From Halorubrum yunnanense (GTDB lineage Archaea; Halobacteriota; Halobacteria; Halobacteriales; Haloferacaceae), in the NCBI RefSeq assembly GCF_026586675.1, contig NZ_JAODIX010000032.1, positions 1-64,000 on the forward strand: a DNA stretch of 64,000 nt, written 5' to 3'. Below, piece by piece: positions 8,056 to 17,632 of the stretch (position 1 is its first letter; the number at the start of each line of letters is the position of its first letter). Both the position numbers and the translations under genes were made by a program. The notes under the pieces were generated by a model. The model was not told the origin of the DNA. It worked only from the letters and a program-made list of their open reading frames with translations, and searched no databases.

Positions 8056-9558
8056 TTACGCGCCGTCGGCCGCGCTCACCGCGTCGGCGACGACGCCTTC
8101 GACCTCGGCGACCAGCTCCTCAACTGCGTCGCTCTCGGCGTACACCCTGACGTACGGCTCCGTGCCGGAGGGCCGGACGAGCGTCCACGAGGCGTCGGGG
8201 AACTCCAGGCGCACGCCGTGGTCGGTGTTCACCGTCGCGTCGGTGAACGCCGCCGGCAGCGCGGTCTCCAGCCGGTCCATCGCGTCGGCCTTGGCGTCGT
8301 CGGGGCAGTCGACGCTCAGCTTGCGGTACGGGCGCTCCGTGATCGGCTCGCGGAGGCCGTCGAGCCCCTCGTCGGCGACGAGCCGGGCGATCACGGCCGC
8401 CGAGGCGACGCCGTCGATCCACTCGCCGTGAGCGACGTGGATGTGCTTCCACGGCTCCGCGGCGAAGACGACGCTGGTGTCCGCGGTCGTCCCCGCCGAC
8501 CGGGCCTCCTCGCGAACCGCCGCGATGCCCTCGTGAAGGGCGCCGAGCCGCACGCGCTCGACGCGCCCGCCCGCCTCGCGGACGCGCTCGTCGATACGAC
8601 CGGAGGCGTTCGGGGTCGTGACGACCACGGGGTCGGCGGCGTCGCTCTCGCGGGCGTACCGCTCCGCGAGCAGCGCGAGCACGGTGTCCTCGTGGACGAC
8701 CTCGCCGTCGGCGTCGACGATCACGATCCGGTCGGCGTCGCCGTCGTGGCCGATGCCGAACGCGAACCCCTCGGCGTCGCCCTCGCCGCCCTCGGCGTCC
8801 GTCTCCCGTCGACCCGGATCGTTCACGCCCTCGTTGGCGTCGGCGACGAACGCCCGGAGGTCCCGCAGCGTCCCCGGGGTCGGCTTGCTCCCCCGGCCGG
8901 GGAAGTGGCCGTCCACGTTCCCGTTGAGCGTGACGACGTCGGCGCCGAGCTCGCGGAGCACGGTCGGCGTCGCGGGCGCCGACATCCCGTTCCCGCAGTC
9001 GACCGCGACCCGGAGTCCGTCGAGCGGGGCCCCGAACCGCTCCGCGTACGCGCGGACGTCGGCGAGGTAGCGGTCCGCGGCGTCGACGCGCTCCGTCTCG
9101 GTCCACGCGTCCCACGCCGCCGGCGGCTCCTCGTTCGCCACGCGCTCCTCGACGGCGAGTTCGGCCTCGCGATCGAACTCGCCGCCGTCGCGGAACAGCT
9201 TGATCCCGTTGTCGGTCGGCGGGTTGTGCGAGGCCGTGAGCATCACGCCGTACCGGTCCCGCGAGGCGTGTGCGAGCGCGGGGGTCGGCAACCGTCCGGC
9301 GCGCAGCACGCGGACGCCGCCCGAGGCGAGTCCCGACTCCATCGCCGCCGCGAGCGCGGGGCCGGTCACGCGCCCGTCGCGGGCAAGCACGACCTCGGCG
9401 GGGCGCGCGTCGGCGTCGCCGCTCTCCCGACCGCTCGCGCCGCCCTCTGCGTCCGCCCGTACCTCCGCCGCGACGGCGCGTCCCACGGCGAGCGCGAGCT
9501 CGGGCGTGACCCGTTCCTCGGCGCTCCCGCGGATCCCCGCGGTTCCGAACAAGTCCAT
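8056..9558 (-). CDS. Phosphohexomutase (phosphoglucomutase/phosphomannomutase family)
   Basis: 500 residues. It begins MDLFGTAGIRG, the classical N terminus of the alpha-D-phosphohexomutases. The catalytic phosphoserine loop is TASHNPPTDNGIKLF (about residue 107), the metal-binding loop GHDGDADRI (about residue 265), and the C-terminal phosphate-binding loop RPSGTEPYVRVY (about residue 465). It interconverts hexose 1- and 6-phosphates or glucosamine phosphates; archaeal genomes hold several paralogues, so the sugar is not certain. It is transcribed alone, divergently from the acylphosphatase gene. Slightly longer than usual because of Asp/Glu/Gly-rich insertions. Confidence 0.88.
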   Translation of the reverse strand: MDLFGTAGIRGSAEERVTPELALAVGRAVAAEVRADAEGGASGRESGDADARPAEVVLARDGRVTGPALAAAMESGLASGGVRVLRAGRLPTPALAHASRDRYGVMLTASHNPPTDNGIKLFRDGGEFDREAELAVEERVANEEPPAAWDAWTETERVDAADRYLADVRAYAERFGAPLDGLRVAVDCGNGMSAPATPTVLRELGADVVTLNGNVDGHFPGRGSKPTPGTLRDLRAFVADANEGVNDPGRRETDAEGGEGDAEGFAFGIGHDGDADRIVIVDADGEVVHEDTVLALLAERYARESDAADPVVVTTPNASGRIDERVREAGGRVERVRLGALHEGIAAVREEARSAGTTADTSVVFAAEPWKHIHVAHGEWIDGVASAAVIARLVADEGLDGLREPITERPYRKLSVDCPDDAKADAMDRLETALPAAFTDATVNTDHGVRLEFPDASWTLVRPSGTEPYVRVYAESDAVEELVAEVEGVVADAVSAADGA

Positions 9559-9689
9559 ACCCCCGCCTGGGCCGGCGAGGAGTTAGAAGCCGTCGGTTGG
9601 CGAGCGTCGGCTCCACGGCCGCCGTGCGTCGGCCGGACGAGCGTCGGCCGGACGGGCGTCGGCGTCGACGCGCCGAGCGCCGGGCGTCG

Positions 9690-9696
9690 TTTTTAA
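9690..9696 (+). promoter_or_regulatory. TATA box of acylphosphatase gene
   Basis: TTTTTAA about 27-33 nt upstream of the ATG at 9723, the spacing expected for a leaderless haloarchaeal transcript. It decides the start: longer in-frame extension upstream would cross the promoter. Confidence 0.5.
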
Positions 9697-9722
9697 CCCC
9701 GCGGCGGTCGCACGCTCCGGTC

Positions 9723-10001
9723 ATGGCAGACCGCACGCGAGCGCACGTGTACGTCTCGGGCCGCGTCCAAGGCGTCTACTACCGCGCGACAACGCGCGAC
9801 ACCGCCCGGGAGAAGGGGGTCGACGGCTGGGTGCGCAACCTCGACGACGGGCGCGTCGAGGCCGTCTTCGAGGGACCGACGGACGCGGTCCGCGAGATGG
9901 TCGCGTGGTGCGAGACCGGGAGCAAGGCGGCCGACGTCGACGACGTCGACGCGACCGAGGAGGAGCCGGAGGGGCTGGACGGGTTCGAGGTCCGGTGGTA
10001 G
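9723..10001 (+). CDS. acyP: Acylphosphatase
   Basis: 92 residues, the normal length. The acyl-phosphate loop GRVQGVYYR (with the catalytic Arg) and the downstream GWVRNLDDGRVEAVFEG with the catalytic Asn are both present. It hydrolyses carboxyl-phosphate bonds such as acetyl phosphate or 1,3-bisphosphoglycerate in the cytoplasm. Start chosen at 9723 on the TATA spacing and family length. Convergent with the next gene, 20 nt apart. Confidence 0.93.
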   Translation: MADRTRAHVYVSGRVQGVYYRATTRDTAREKGVDGWVRNLDDGRVEAVFEGPTDAVREMVAWCETGSKAADVDDVDATEEEPEGLDGFEVRW

Positions 10002-10020
10002 GCGGGCGGTTCCGGCGGGC

Positions 10021-10482
10021 TCAGGGCGCCACCGGATCGCCCGGTGAGTCGCGGACGCCGAGCTCCGCTAGCGCGCGCAACACCACGATCGCCTCGACGA
10101 CGTCGCGCTCCTCGGTGTAGGGGTCGTCGACGGCGTCGAGGGTCGCCTCGGCCTCGGCGGCGAGCCGAGACTCCAGCTCCGTCTGGTCGGTCTCGGGCTT
10201 GGTCGCCGACAGCAGCGCCTCGTGGTCCTCGCGTAGGTCCAGCGAGACGTGCGCCGCGTTGCACCGCGAGAGCGGGTGGGTATCCATCTCGATGGCCAGG
10301 TCGCTCACGAGCTCCCAGTCGTCGGCACAGAAGCGCAGCGTCACCGCTCCGACGACGTCGCGCCACGAGATCGGGCCGCCGTTCGCCATCAGCCCGATCG
10401 CCCGCGGCGGCACCGCGATCCGGGTGTGCGTGTCGTCGCGGCCGCACAGGCAACAGGGGGTGTTCTTCAGTCCGGCGTACAC
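10021..10482 (-). CDS. Conserved haloarchaeal protein with CCLC motif, unknown function
   Basis: 153 residues. The N terminus carries CCLCGRDDTHTR, a possible zinc-binding knuckle, and a later Cys (about residue 52). The rest is acidic and probably helical, ending in a short Pro/Gly tail. I do not recognise a named family. The start is a GTG at 10482. The upstream TATA-like sequence (10547-10556) coincides with the left edge of the composite repeat, so the repeat may supply its promoter. Confidence 0.6.
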   Translation of the reverse strand: MYAGLKNTPCCLCGRDDTHTRIAVPPRAIGLMANGGPISWRDVVGAVTLRFCADDWELVSDLAIEMDTHPLSRCNAAHVSLDLREDHEALLSATKPETDQTELESRLAAEAEATLDAVDDPYTEERDVVEAIVVLRALAELGVRDSPGDPVAP

Positions 10483-10548
10483 GCCGATTTGTACGGGCCG
10501 GAGAGTGGTGTGCGTTTCGGCGCCGAGAGCGGACTGCCGACGACACGG

Positions 10549-10840
10549 TATATAAACGAACGCGGTGCGGTGGCGCGCGCCTCCGAGCGGTCGCCCTCGG
10601 CGGCCGCGAGGAGCGCGTGCGAGGGAGTCGGTCGTCCGGAGCGAAGCGGAGGACGACTGACGAGGCTGGGGAGGTGTGAGGTGCGGTTGCGGTGCGCTGC
10701 GGGGCGGGACTCAAAGGGGCAGCCGCGAGGCGGGCGCAGGCGATGTAAGCACCGCAACGAGGGAGCGGTAGCGACCGAGTGAGGAGCGCAGCGAGCGTGC
10801 GCCCGCCTCGCGGCTGGGGCTTTGGGAGAGTTCGCCGCCG
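10549..10840. repeat. Composite repeat element, copy A
   Basis: This stretch shares ordered blocks with 59911-60106. Both start with TATAAA(C/T)GAA, continue after 16-18 nt with GGTGGCGCG(C/T)GCC, and contain an identical 25-nt block beginning CGAGGCTGGGGAGGTGTGAG (10661-10685 here), then a GGGACT-type box. It holds an exact 18-bp inverted repeat (10721-10738 with 10798-10815, loop 59 nt). No credible protein is encoded. It may be a non-coding RNA gene, a small non-autonomous element or a structural repeat; I recall similar strings as common in Halorubrum genomes but cannot verify that here. Confidence 0.75.
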
Positions 10841-13421: not shown

Positions 13422-13595
13422 ATGATCGGAGTCGCACTCGGGGCGGCCGGAATCGCAGCGGTGACCGCGTTGCTGGCGCTCAGCGCGTTCTTCTCCAGCT
13501 CTGAGACCGCGATCTTCTCGCTGCCGGCTCCGTTCTCGCGGCTGATAGCCGCGGAGGTGGGTTTAAGCCCGGCCGCGGCCGAGCGATCTCCATGA
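13422..13595 (+). pseudogene. N-terminal stub of a CNNM/DUF21 (HlyC/CorC-type) membrane protein
   Basis: 57-codon ORF: a hydrophobic first helix followed by SAFFSSSETAIFSLP, the signature of the DUF21/CNNM transmembrane domain. Full proteins run 350-450 residues with further helices, two CBS domains and a CorC_HlyC domain; all of that is missing. After the signature the frame runs into unrelated residues and ends at a TGA overlapping the ATG of the ABC ATPase gene (13592-13595). It may be a deletion remnant or a short coupled leader peptide. A TATA-like GTTTAAGC at 13561-13568 inside it fits a promoter for the ABC operon. Confidence 0.65.
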
Positions 13596-14620
13596 TCGAG
13601 GTGGCGGGGTTGCGCAAGACGTACGGCGACTTCGCGGCGGTCGTCGACAGCGACTTCTCCGTCGAGGAGGGCGAGGTGTTCGGCATCGTCGGCCCGAACG
13701 GCGCCGGCAAGACGACGACGCTGAAGGTGCTCGCCGGGCTCGTCGACCCCACCGAGGGGGACGTCGAGGTCGCCGGCTTCCCCTCGGACGACCCGGAGAT
13801 GCGGCGGCGGCTCGGCTTCCTCCCCGAGGAGTCGCCCCTCTACGAGGAGATGACGCCGCTGTCGTACCTGAACTTCTTCGCCGACCTGTACGACGTGCCG
13901 AGCGAGGTCGCCGACGAGCGGATCGAGGCCGCCCTCGACCGGCTCGAACTGGACCACCGAGACCGCCGGCTCGGCGACATGTCGAAGGGGATGAAACGCA
14001 AGGTCGCCATCGCGCGGTCCCTCGTCAACGACCCGGACGTGCTCGTGTACGACGAGCCCGCCTCGGGGCTCGACCCGGTGACGACCAACTCCGTGCTGGA
14101 GTTCACCCGCGAGCTGCGGGCGGCCGGGAAGACGGTCGTCTTCTCCGCGCACAACCTCTACCACGTCGAGTCCGTCTGCGACCGCGTCGTGGTGATGAAC
14201 GAGGGCCGCATCGTCGCCCGCGGGAGCGTCGACGGGATCCGCGAGCGACACGGCGAGACGACCTACCACGTGTTCACCGACGTCGCGCCCGCCGCCGGCG
14301 AGCGCCTGATCGAGGCCCTCGCCGACCCCGACGCCCCGACCGAGGAGGTCGGCGACCGGTTCCGCACCGTGGTGCCGGACATGGACGCGGTCGAGGCGGT
14401 TCGGGCGGCGGCCGCGGAGGCCGGCGGCGAGGTCGTCGACATCCGCACCCGCGAGCCGAGCCTCGAGGACGTGTTCCTCGACATCGTCGGCCGGCCGATG
14501 CCCGGGCGGTACACCGGGGGCGGCGGGGCGGTCGACGAGACCCGCGACACCGCCGGAGACGGTGGCGAAGGTGACGACGAGAGGAACCGACCGGCCGAGC
14601 CCCCGGAGGGCGCCGAGTGA
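13592..14620 (+). CDS. ABC transporter ATP-binding protein (Na+/drug exporter type)
   Basis: 342 residues. Walker A GPNGAGKTTTLK (about residue 36), signature MSKGMKRKVAIARSL, Walker B VLVYDEPASGLDP and the H-loop SAHNL are intact. The domain type is the CcmA/NatA-like subfamily that pairs with ABC-2 permeases. About 100 C-terminal residues form an accessory domain ending in an acidic tail. First gene of a three-gene exporter operon with two permeases; starts and stops overlap by a few nucleotides. Confidence 0.9.
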   Translation: MIEVAGLRKTYGDFAAVVDSDFSVEEGEVFGIVGPNGAGKTTTLKVLAGLVDPTEGDVEVAGFPSDDPEMRRRLGFLPEESPLYEEMTPLSYLNFFADLYDVPSEVADERIEAALDRLELDHRDRRLGDMSKGMKRKVAIARSLVNDPDVLVYDEPASGLDPVTTNSVLEFTRELRAAGKTVVFSAHNLYHVESVCDRVVVMNEGRIVARGSVDGIRERHGETTYHVFTDVAPAAGERLIEALADPDAPTEEVGDRFRTVVPDMDAVEAVRAAAAEAGGEVVDIRTREPSLEDVFLDIVGRPMPGRYTGGGGAVDETRDTAGDGGEGDDERNRPAEPPEGAE

Positions 14621-16557
14621 TCGACCGGCTCCGGAGGGTCCTCCGGGTCGCCCGCTGGGAGGTCGCCCGCGCGGGCGGCGGCGTCGACCGCCGAACGCTG
14701 GCCGCGGCCCTCGCGCTCCTACTCGTCGCCGGCGGCGTCCTCGGCGGCGGGCTCGCGGTCGGCGCGGTCGGGCTCGACGTCGACCGCGACGTGTACCGCG
14801 TCGCCGTCGACGGCGACTCGCCGTACGCGGACGCGGTCGAGGAAGCCCCGGCCCTGACACCGGTGCCCGTCGAGGGAGCCGACCTCGGCGACACGGCCGA
14901 CCTCGTCGTCTTCGACGGCGGCGGGAGCCGAACCGACGCGGTTGAGACCGTCGCCGTCCGCGCCAGCGACACCCGCAAGGGCGAGGCCGCCGCGGCCGAG
15001 TTCCGCGCGGCCGTCGAGGCGCACAACGAGCGGCTGATGGCCGCCGAGGAGAACGCGACCGCCGCCTTCCCGGTCACCGTCACCCTCCGGTACGTCGGTC
15101 GGACGAGCGCGCTCGACGAGGGCTCGACCCTCGGCGAGGATGACGGCGGAAGCGACGACGGCTCGGGAGGCGGGACCGGCGGCGACGCGGAGGGCGGCGA
15201 CGACGGCTCGGGAGGCGGAACCGGCGGCGACGCGGAGGGCGACGACGGCGACACGAGCGAGACTGCCCCGACCGGCGGCGACACCGCGACCGACGGCGGC
15301 GGCCTCGCGGTCCCCTCGGTCGGCGGCGGGACGTTCGGCGCCGACACGGTGGGCTCGCCGGGGTCGATCTCGCCGCCGTTCCCCTTCGTCTCGCTGCTCT
15401 TAGCGTTCGTCTTCCTCGTCCCGATGAACTTCCTCATCCAGGCGTACGGCTCCTCGGTGCTCGACGAGCGCACGAACCGCCGGGGCGAGCCCATGCTCGT
15501 CACGCCGCTCTCGCCGGTCGACATCGTCGCCGGGAAGACGCTCCCGTACGTCGCGGCCGCGCTCGTCGTCACGGCGCTCATCGCGCTCGGGGTCGGCGGC
15601 GGCGTCCTCTCCGTGCTCGCCGTGCTCCCCGTGGCCCTGACCTTCCTCGCGGCCACCTTCGTCGGCGCGATGTTCGCGCGGTCGTTCAAGGAGCTCACCT
15701 TCGTCACGGTGGGCGTCAGCGTGCTCCTCACGACGTACGCCTTCGTGCCGGCCATCTTCACCAACGTGACGCCCGTCGCGCTGGTGTCGCCGCTGACGCT
15801 CGTGGTCTTCGACCTGCAGGGCGAGGCCGTCTCGGCCGGCGAGGCCCTCTTCTCTACGGTCCCGATGGCGCTCGGTTCCGCGCTCCTGTTCGGGCTCGGT
15901 CTCGGGGTGTACCGCGAGGAGGACATGTTCACCCAGAAGCCTGTGCCGCGGAAGTTCCTCGACGCGCTCGCGGTGCGGCTCTCGCCGGTCGAGGACGTCG
16001 CCCTCGCGGGACTCGTCGACCGCGGGCGACTCCGCGCGCTCGGGTCGGTCGCGTTCCTCACCGCCTGCACGATCCCCTTCGTGTTCGTCGCGGAGCTGCT
16101 GGCGGTCGCGACGCTGTTCGCGCTGCCGGTGACGGTGTCGGTCCCCGTGCTCCTCGTGACGATCGCCTTCGTCGAGGAGGTCGCGAAAAGCGTCGGCCTC
16201 TACGCCGGGTTCGAGCGCGACGTCTTCGCCCGGACCGACCGGGTCGCCGTCGCGGTCGGCGTCGCCTCCGCGGTCGGGTTCTTCCTCGCCGAGAAGGCCA
16301 CGGCGGTCGCGCAGGCGGTCGGGCTCACGGAGCTGTACGTCGGTCGGGCCGCGTTCGGGAGCGTCGCCGGGGGAGCGGGGCTCTCCCCGGTCACCGCCGT
16401 GGCGCTGCTGTTCGCGCCCCTCCTGCTCCACGGGTTCGCGACGACCGTCGCCGCGGTGGGCGCGAGTCGGGACCGGACGTACTACGTCCTGACGCTGGCG
16501 CTGGCGACGCTCGTCCACGCCGCGTACAACTTCGGGGTGGTGAGCCTCCATGGGTGA
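14617..16557 (+). CDS. ABC-2 type permease fused to a PrsW-like intramembrane protease domain
   Basis: 646 residues, GTG start overlapping the ATPase stop (GTGA). Residues about 25-250 contain the first membrane helix and a long external loop with a low-complexity Asp/Gly/Ser/Thr segment; about 255-440 are the helical ABC-2 core (PMLVTPLSPVDIVAGKTLPY). From about residue 490 the sequence becomes a second multi-helix module with FVEEVAKSVGLYAGF, the EExxK motif of PrsW-family glutamic/metallo membrane proteases, then LLLHGFATTVAAVG and LVHAAYNF, matching its further His-bearing helices. So one chain combines a permease and a likely protease or protease-derived domain. Confidence 0.82.
   Translation: MIDRLRRVLRVARWEVARAGGGVDRRTLAAALALLLVAGGVLGGGLAVGAVGLDVDRDVYRVAVDGDSPYADAVEEAPALTPVPVEGADLGDTADLVVFDGGGSRTDAVETVAVRASDTRKGEAAAAEFRAAVEAHNERLMAAEENATAAFPVTVTLRYVGRTSALDEGSTLGEDDGGSDDGSGGGTGGDAEGGDDGSGGGTGGDAEGDDGDTSETAPTGGDTATDGGGLAVPSVGGGTFGADTVGSPGSISPPFPFVSLLLAFVFLVPMNFLIQAYGSSVLDERTNRRGEPMLVTPLSPVDIVAGKTLPYVAAALVVTALIALGVGGGVLSVLAVLPVALTFLAATFVGAMFARSFKELTFVTVGVSVLLTTYAFVPAIFTNVTPVALVSPLTLVVFDLQGEAVSAGEALFSTVPMALGSALLFGLGLGVYREEDMFTQKPVPRKFLDALAVRLSPVEDVALAGLVDRGRLRALGSVAFLTACTIPFVFVAELLAVATLFALPVTVSVPVLLVTIAFVEEVAKSVGLYAGFERDVFARTDRVAVAVGVASAVGFFLAEKATAVAQAVGLTELYVGRAAFGSVAGGAGLSPVTAVALLFAPLLLHGFATTVAAVGASRDRTYYVLTLALATLVHAAYNFGVVSLHG
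15152..15241 (+). repeat. 45-nt in-frame tandem duplication
   Basis: Two near-identical 45-nt units (15152-15196, 15197-15241) encode DDGSGGGTGGDAEG(G/D) twice in the external loop of the permease-protease fusion. Only one base appears to differ, so the duplication is recent. Confidence 0.85.
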
Positions 16558-17632
16558 GACCGATAGCCGACCGGCGAGCGCCGGGCGGAGCAGTCGTCTG
16601 ACGATCGCCGGCCGCGAACTGGCGGGCCTGCGCGCCGAGAAGACGATCCTGCTGGCGATCGCGATCCAGCTGTTCATCGCCGCGTTCTCGTCGTTCCTCG
16701 TCGTCGGGCTCGTCTCGATGTACGACCCCGGATCGCTCGGCGGCGCGGAGGTCGAGGTGGCGGGCGCGGGCGACGCCGTGAGCGACCTCGAACGCGCCGC
16801 GAGCGACGTCGAGGGCGCCTCGGTCACCCGATACGAGGACGGCACCGCCGCGCTGAACGCCTTCGACCGGAACGCCGCCGACGCGGTGGTGATCGCGAAC
16901 CGCAACGATGACGGTCGGGTCTCCGCGGTCGTCACGGCGCCGGACGCAACAGTCGAGACGACCGTGATCGTCGTCCAACTCCGGGAGCTGCTCCGGTCCT
17001 ACGAGCTGGACGAGCGCGAGGACCGCGCCGCGTACCTGAGCGAGTCGCCGCTTCCCCTGCCGGACCGGACCGGCTCCAGTCCGTACTTCACGTTCACGTA
17101 CACCGTGTTGATCCCGGTCCTCGTCTTCCTCCCCGTCTTCATCTCTGGGTCGCTCGTGGTCGACTCGATCACCGAGGAGATCGACGAGGGGACCCTCGAG
17201 CTGCTCCGCGTCGCCCCGGTCACCCTGGGAGAGATCGTCGACGGAAAGGCGCTCGCGGCGGTCGCGATTGCCCCCGGACAGGCGCTGCTGTGGCTCCTCT
17301 TGCTCCGCGCGAACGGGACCCCCGTCGCCAACGTCCCGTCGATCCTCGCGCTGATGACCGCGCTGACGACGCTCGTCGTCGCGCTGGCGGTCGCCATCTC
17401 CGCGCTCGCGCCGGACCGGCGCGCCGCCCAGTTCCTCTACTCGATCGGCGTCCTCGTCCTCTTCGGCGGCGCGACGGCGATGGCCGGCGGCCCGGCGAAC
17501 GCGGTCGCGCGCCTCGCCATCGATAGCGCGGACGCGGCGACGACCGCCCTCGTCGTCGCCTACGTGGGTATCGCGGCGGTCGCGTACGTCGGCGTGCGGC
17601 GACTCGTCGCCGAGAACGGGTTCGAGGGGTGA
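16550..17632 (+). CDS. ABC-2 type permease (NatB-like)
   Basis: 360 residues. An N-terminal helix (about 33-58) is followed by a large extracytoplasmic domain of about 140 residues and then five or six helices. The coupling region SITEEIDEGTLELLRVAPVT matches NatB/YhaP-type sodium or drug exporters. It overlaps the preceding gene by 8 nt, so the ATPase and two unlike permeases probably form one exporter. Substrate unknown. Confidence 0.87.
   Translation: MGETDSRPASAGRSSRLTIAGRELAGLRAEKTILLAIAIQLFIAAFSSFLVVGLVSMYDPGSLGGAEVEVAGAGDAVSDLERAASDVEGASVTRYEDGTAALNAFDRNAADAVVIANRNDDGRVSAVVTAPDATVETTVIVVQLRELLRSYELDEREDRAAYLSESPLPLPDRTGSSPYFTFTYTVLIPVLVFLPVFISGSLVVDSITEEIDEGTLELLRVAPVTLGEIVDGKALAAVAIAPGQALLWLLLLRANGTPVANVPSILALMTALTTLVVALAVAISALAPDRRAAQFLYSIGVLVLFGGATAMAGGPANAVARLAIDSADAATTALVVAYVGIAAVAYVGVRRLVAENGFEG

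Follow-up and report, generated by a model that had tools for sequence, protein, structure and literature searches.

The window analyzed here is a stretch of 64,000 nucleotides from Halorubrum yunnanense (contig NZ_JAODIX010000032.1, positions 1 to 64,000). One of its genes (14617..16557, + strand) encodes a 646-aa protein in one uninterrupted frame, with a GTG start and a TGA stop, in which an ABC-2 (ATP-binding cassette type 2) half-transporter is followed by a PrsW-like domain. Residues 1-438 are one half of an ABCA/NosY-like exporter, and the partner half is encoded next door. The relation of the C-terminal domain to PrsW holds on profile comparison and on the PF13367 scores of orthologues, with the predicted structure agreeing but not deciding. 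The earlier note on this DNA had described the gene as an ABC-2 permease with a large external loop, fused to a PrsW-like protease and lying in an exporter operon. This description stood. The permease part matched PF12698, ABCA4, and NosY, its external loop spanned residues 48-256, the operon consisted of an ATPase gene, the fusion gene, and a second permease gene with overlapping ends, and both parts of the fusion lay in one frame. Judging from sequence data, we lean slightly towards an active protease that works together with the exporter.

Relation of the C-terminal domain to PrsW

The predicted PrsW-like intramembrane protease domain occupies residues 441-646 (15937..16554, + strand) and has five predicted transmembrane helices. 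Its profile was compared with those of other families by hhalign. Against 23 stand-alone archaeal PrsW proteins it scored 94.7% (E 6.2e-8, 157-158 columns), whereas the same test gave 0.6% against 29 CPBP proteins and 0.2% against 60 partner permeases. In the alignment with stand-alone PrsW, all four motifs (EExxK, FxxxE, a histidine, and HxxxN) were in register, and E559 aligned with E190. A hidden Markov model (HMM) of the fused domains recovered 15 of the 23 stand-alone PrsW proteins at an independent E-value (i-E) < 1e-3; none of the 60 permeases, 29 CPBP proteins, or 23 reversed PrsW sequences was recovered at that threshold. In genomes without the fusion, the domain profile picked places that PF13367 also called (e.g., in genomes G005, G148, G153, G306, and G311). 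In a six-frame search, PF13367 matched 19 fusion orthologues, each in its C-terminal part. Sixteen of these matches were over the cut-off, two of them only together with neighboring stretches.

CPBP identity was considered and rejected. The motif of CPBP/CAAX proteases (PF02517) is EExxxR. All 98 rows of the orthologue alignment contained EExxK, whereas the 29 CPBP sequences used for comparison have E[ED]..[FWY]R, and the hhalign score was as low as given above. In 60 genomes, none of the PF02517 places fell on a fusion locus.

The domain was also modeled alone. The model of residues 441-646 had a mean predicted local distance difference test score (pLDDT) of 92.3 and a predicted template modeling score (pTM) of 0.88, and it contained five membrane helices, with residues 469-500 forming one kinked pair. 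APH-1 (APH-1B) ranked first among solved structures (Z 10.4, root-mean-square deviation (rmsd) 4.5, 162 residues aligned), a rank that is not decisive for a helical bundle. Below it came a BOS-complex chain (Z 10.0), the unrelated MlaE (8.8), and Rce1 (5.7). VIA-align gave many transporters at Z 5-9, so the rank of APH-1 was taken as supportive only.

Several results weigh against the relation to PrsW. Searching with hmmscan, no PrsW match was found in the window protein at E ≤ 1, and PrsW was found in 1/62 orthologues at E ≤ 1e-3. The HMM of the 23 stand-alone PrsW proteins gave the window domain 5.2 bits. When the 98 fusions were searched with it under default filters, there was one match and none at i-E < 1e-3; with --max, 14/98 fusions were matched at i-E < 1, again none at < 1e-3. 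Without composition correction, 37/98 fusions were matched at < 1e-3, and the controls of this uncorrected search were 0/60 permeases, 0/29 CPBP proteins, 0/98 shuffled sequences, and 0/98 reversed sequences. These outcomes indicated that detection from the stand-alone PrsW side was weak and dependent on bias correction. The filters and the composition correction also account for the disagreement between the six-frame search and hmmscan. On the structural side, Foldseek found no match in the PDB at E ≤ 0.001 for either the domain model or the model of the whole fusion (E 1.4 for the C-terminal domain), and a Z of about 10 falls in the range of unrelated helical bundles.

The C-terminal part might then consist of ordinary permease helices that resemble PrsW by chance, a reading to which the hmmscan result and the presence of MlaE and other permeases at Z 8-9 in the structural list could be credited. 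We consider it very improbable. An entire ABC-2 half of six helices, which by itself matches ABCA4 and NosY, precedes the domain, and the invariant columns of the domain coincide with the PrsW active site. Ordinary permease helices without a PrsW or CPBP fold, the outcome that the earlier note had set against its own proposal, were not what the comparisons gave: the profile fitted PrsW and neither permeases nor CPBP, and the model ranked APH-1 first.

The fused domain differs from known PrsW proteins (PF13367, MEROPS M82) in several respects, although it has the EExxK, FxxxE, fifth-helix histidine, and HxxxN/D motifs in the same order. Its two histidines are in helices 4 and 5 of the domain, with one helix fewer at its start. 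It is fused behind an ABC-2 half-transporter and is mostly under Pfam detection. Stand-alone archaeal PrsW proteins have FxxxEN (N191), whereas the fused domain has FxxxEK (K560), and the conserved DG...Y stretch of stand-alone PrsW is lacking in it. Four loci (L111, L117, L125, and L130) encode PrsW proteins of the stand-alone type, 508-580 aa in length, whose long N-terminal part has no significant Pfam domain.

Active-site residues and predicted catalysis

In the available text of PMC4602095 (eLife 2015), the motifs of PrsW are EExxK, HxxxD/N in the sixth transmembrane helix (TMH), and a fifth-helix histidine without a counterpart in CAAX proteases. The earlier note had listed three PrsW-type motifs in the window protein, VEEVAKS, HGFATT, and HAAYNF, and these proved real, starting at residues 519, 605, and 634, respectively. 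A further one that it did not list, FFLAE (residues 555-559), corresponds to FxxxE, which is also a PrsW motif and is visible in the alignment of stand-alone archaeal PrsW proteins. On the + strand of the window, E520, E521, and K524 of EExxK are encoded at 16174..16188, F555 and E559 of FxxxE at 16279..16293, H605, the histidine of PrsW TMH5, at 16429..16431, and H634 and N638 of HxxxN at 16516..16530.

For conservation analysis, 104 fusion loci gave 98 distinct rows, including the window copy, after six duplicates were dropped. E520, E521, K524, E559, H605, and H634 were identical in all 98 rows. F555 was present in 97 of them, and position 638 was N in 90 and D in 8. In a 62-row alignment of the domain, in which the non-halophile domains were 19-36% identical to that of the window, 7 of 206 columns never varied: E520, E521, K524, E559, K560, H605, and H634. 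Six of these are the PrsW active-site positions, and the seventh, K560, is a lysine next to one of them. The overlap of the invariant columns with the PrsW active site had a hypergeometric p of 7e-11, with columns treated as independent. The invariance of the six residues in 98/98 rows indicated that the resemblance is more than chance. A chance motif match was rejected on the strength of the profile comparison with its controls and because the invariant columns coincide with the active site.

In the model, E520, E521, and K524 are located in helix 505-533, E559 in helix 541-571, H605 in helix 591-618, and H634 in helix 620-645, all near mid-helix. In the two short loops predicted to be cytoplasmic, the fraction of lysine plus arginine over 62 sequences was 0.25 and 0.38; in the loops predicted to face outward, it was 0.01-0.02. 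This charge distribution agrees with the modeled helix layout.

No other part of the domain appears to have been conserved by selection as strictly as the active site, and this is the main argument for predicting catalysis. Another role for such a domain would be that of a non-cleaving membrane scaffold, like APH-1 in gamma-secretase, that shapes or stabilizes the transporter while its polar residues bind metal or hold helices together. The nearest solved fold is that of APH-1, and APH-1 is a member of the PrsW superfamily according to the accessible part of PMC4602095. The motif set, however, argues against a scaffold, as EExxK, FxxxE, and both histidines are invariant in all rows while the rest of the domain diverges in non-halophiles to the identities given above. 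APH-1 is a stand-alone, non-catalytic subunit that has lost part of the motif set. A comparable loss would be expected of a scaffold, whereas the fused domain keeps the full set. We regard this role as quite unlikely.

Age, gene set, and possible role of the fusion

Genomes were surveyed at E ≤ 0.001; a few of the matches were partial. The fusion was matched in 124/148 genomes of the family, 179/242 of the class, and 99/196 of the phylum. The best 80 of 366 matches included Methanolobus, Methanomethylovorans, Methanoperedens, Methanoregula, Methanoculleus, Syntrophoarchaeum, Natrinema, and Halorussus. In the plasmid collection, one archaeal record among 72,556 was matched. The orthologues were single frames of about 515-730 aa, except one of 444 aa.

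Trees were compared for the permease half and the protease half. They had 27 of 51 splits in common, 20 of which were supported in both, whereas trees with shuffled names shared a mean of 0.17 and a maximum of 2. Haloarchaea were monophyletic in both trees (100 and 99), and so was family f15 (99 and 94). Within haloarchaea, three permease-half splits conflicted with one supported protease-half split (L029, L034, L036, and L222), which is the only sign of a discordant history there. The simplest account of these sequences would be one fusion event before the sampled lineages separated. A sequencing or annotation artefact joining two genes was rejected on account of the single-frame orthologues in many assemblies and the congruent half-trees; nor is the fusion a local peculiarity.

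The gene set around the fusion was also conserved. The second permease gene was directly downstream on the same strand in 138/140 loci, the two exceptions being L184, where the contig ends, and L222. An ATPase gene was nearby in 126/140 loci. It was divergent in 100 of these; in the other 26, which are haloarchaeal and include L095 with its misplaced frame start, it was on the same strand, upstream of the fusion gene. Thirteen loci with the permease showed no ATPase in the stretch examined, several of them owing to contig ends. Among 34 genomes without the fusion, 30 had no partner-permease match, 3 had weak ones (E ~1e-4), and 1 (G055) had a remnant. The parts of the system are gained and lost together.

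In G055, the first 41 residues of the ATPase are in frame with the last third of the second permease (L254, 1384-1986), and the fusion gene is deleted. In Halorussus salinisoli (L222, 5983-7917), the fusion stands alone between open reading frames (ORFs) with HNH repeats associated with homing endonucleases.

The fusion, the strict gene pairing, and the joint loss argue for cutting and transport as parts of a single process. In the mechanism that we propose, an ATPase dimer, an ordinary ABC-2 half, and the ABC-2 half bearing the C-terminal PrsW-type protease would form a heteromeric ABC exporter, and the protease domain would be catalytically competent and act with the exporter. Next to the transporter, a polypeptide anchored in or inserted into the membrane would be cut inside the bilayer, and the ATP-driven motion of the two halves would deliver the substrate or clear the product outward. 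The stoichiometry, the catalysis, the coupling, and the polypeptide nature of the substrate are what we infer in this scheme. Among the observations that count against it, at L222 neither the ATPase nor the partner permease was present within ~6 kb, and no substrate-like gene was conserved phylum-wide within ~5-6 kb among ORFs of at least 80 aa.

Lineage-variable neighbors, which fit a cargo encoded elsewhere, might instead point to a regulatory protease. The protease would then be active but serve the transporter or cellular regulation and not the cargo, as a sensor or a site-1-type protease. Upon engagement of a substrate (a drug, a lipid, or an ion) by the exporter, it would cut a regulator or a damaged membrane protein. 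Bacillus PrsW is described as the site-1 protease of an anti-sigma factor, RsiW, in the available passages of PMC4602095 and PMC9263693. However, no conserved regulator gene adjoins the operon across the phylum. To our knowledge, sigma/anti-sigma pairs are not a mode of regulation in archaea, so that the substrate would have to be something other than an anti-sigma factor. We find this role rather improbable.

The neighboring genes did differ between lineages; the ORFs listed around the loci include antisense ORFs, which are not genes. In Methanolobus-type loci, the divergent ATPase gene and the fusion gene are separated by a gene for an MscS-type mechanosensitive channel (L048, 5891-6697; L144, 5071-5877), and in other loci unrelated genes are found between the two. 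L144 also encodes a 617-aa surface protein (8930-10783) that has DUF11/CARDB-like repeats, a single membrane segment at its C-terminus, and what looks like a signal peptide. In L144 its gene follows the second permease gene in the same orientation at a distance of 18 bases. Such a gene is present in 24 loci, of which those checked by name are from Methanosarcinaceae. This protein is a candidate partner or substrate in Methanosarcinaceae-type loci. As it is absent elsewhere, it may be a partner rather than a general substrate.

A parallel with separate parts comes from the streptolysin S operon. According to the accessible part of PMC4513790, SagE, a suspected CPBP protease, is believed to cleave off the leader ahead of export through SagGHI. 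The two systems share a set of one ATPase, two permeases, and one suspected intramembrane protease; SagE is a separate CPBP protein, whereas the protease in the archaeal system is fused and PrsW-type. The permeases of SagGHI are of the ABC-2 type, as are those considered here. No precursor peptide gene of the SagE kind was recognized near the fusion; the phylum-wide survey covered ORFs of at least 80 aa. Together with the fusion, the gene pairing, and the joint loss, the streptolysin S parallel leads us to favor a process in which a membrane-anchored polypeptide is cut and, coupled to this, released. Extending the mechanism proposed above, we tentatively suggest, as a possibility that we hold with some doubt, that the fusion belongs to an ancient archaeal "cut-and-export" machine, a heteromeric exporter with one transmembrane half that is itself a protease, so that a single complex would couple the cutting of a membrane-anchored protein to its release driven by ATP, and that the candidate substrate in Methanosarcinaceae-type loci is encoded downstream.

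Two other known systems were compared. NF041647, the NCBIfam family of permease/CPBP intramembrane proteases, also has a permease followed by a protease in one chain, judging by its family name and model length. Its protease half is CPBP, whereas that of the window protein is PrsW-like. NF041647 gave the window protein 6 and 5.5 bits in two fragments, compared with a cut-off of 435, and matched 0/62 orthologues at E ≤ 0.01. NosFY/ABCA (type V) exporters have the fold of residues 1-438 and a separate ATPase; the system described here differs by its C-terminal protease domain and its two non-identical ABC-2 halves.

The earlier note had suggested that the protein might release signals or process exported peptides, which would be a hypothesis on what it cleaves, and had called a transporter that is also a protease unusual. 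The latter held in part. The fusion is conserved across an archaeal phylum, and a bacterial fusion of a permease with an intramembrane protease has already been named as NF041647. What is apparently new is its PrsW counterpart, which is of old origin and occurs widely in archaea. For Haloferax volcanii, two reviews of membrane proteases list, in their available portions, HVO_0408 as the single PrsW-like protein or refer to PrsW generally, without mention of a fusion to a permease; in the literature search, within the portions of the texts that were accessible, no description of an archaeal permease/PrsW fusion was found. One RefSeq-derived record of an orthologue is named "ABC transporter permease subunit". 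The fusion has apparently gone unrecognized as a protease so far. Should the domain prove active, a large share of the archaea surveyed would have a transporter that doubles as a protease, masked by its gene name, and intramembrane proteolysis and ATP-driven export would be joined in one chain. The case is tractable: the gene is single-copy, its hosts are non-pathogenic and genetically amenable, and the active site is defined at the level of single residues.

Permease half and operon in the window

The ABC-2 (ABCA/NosY-like) transmembrane half is encoded at 14617..15930 (+ strand). In hmmscan, the permease part alone of the fusion was seen in Pfam (PF12698, E 7.8e-6, 25.6 bits), under the gathering score of 31.6, and the NCBIfam search named no family for the fusion. 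PF12698 was found in 33/62 orthologues at E ≤ 1e-3. When profiles were compared by hhalign, residues 1-438 matched the partner permease at 96.8% (E 2.3e-10).

The whole fusion was modeled using AlphaFold from 62 orthologues (mean pLDDT 81.8, pTM 0.75). The permease half consists of an elbow helix, membrane helix 1, a large external part, and five more helices up to residue 430. ABCA4 (Z 15.5, rmsd 3.6, 207 residues aligned) and NosY (Z 15.3, rmsd 4.3, 188 residues aligned) were the nearest solved structures to residues 1-455. According to the model and its pLDDT, the external loop (14758..15384, + strand) contains a small alpha/beta domain followed by a disordered, acidic, glycine-rich stretch, with most of residues 161-250 disordered.

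The first gene of the operon (13592..14620, + strand) encodes a DrrA/NatA-like ABC transporter ATPase of 342 aa with a DrrA1-3_C domain (PF00005, E 1e-30; PF13732, E 2.3e-8). The third (16550..17632, + strand) encodes the second ABC-2 permease, the likely partner half, of 360 aa (PF12698, E 1.2e-15). The GTG start of the fusion gene overlaps the stop of the ATPase gene (GTGA at 14617-14620), and the start of the second permease gene (16550) precedes the stop of the fusion gene (16555-16557). With these overlapping ends, the three genes are very probably transcribed as a single transcript.

Just 5' of the ATPase gene, a 57-residue ORF (13422-13595) resembles the first residues of CNNM/DUF21 only (PF01595, E 4.6e-4, below the cut-off) and looks like a truncated gene. 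The acidic, glycine-rich stretch of the external loop is encoded by a 45-bp tandem repeat at 15152-15247 (2.1 copies, 96% matches).

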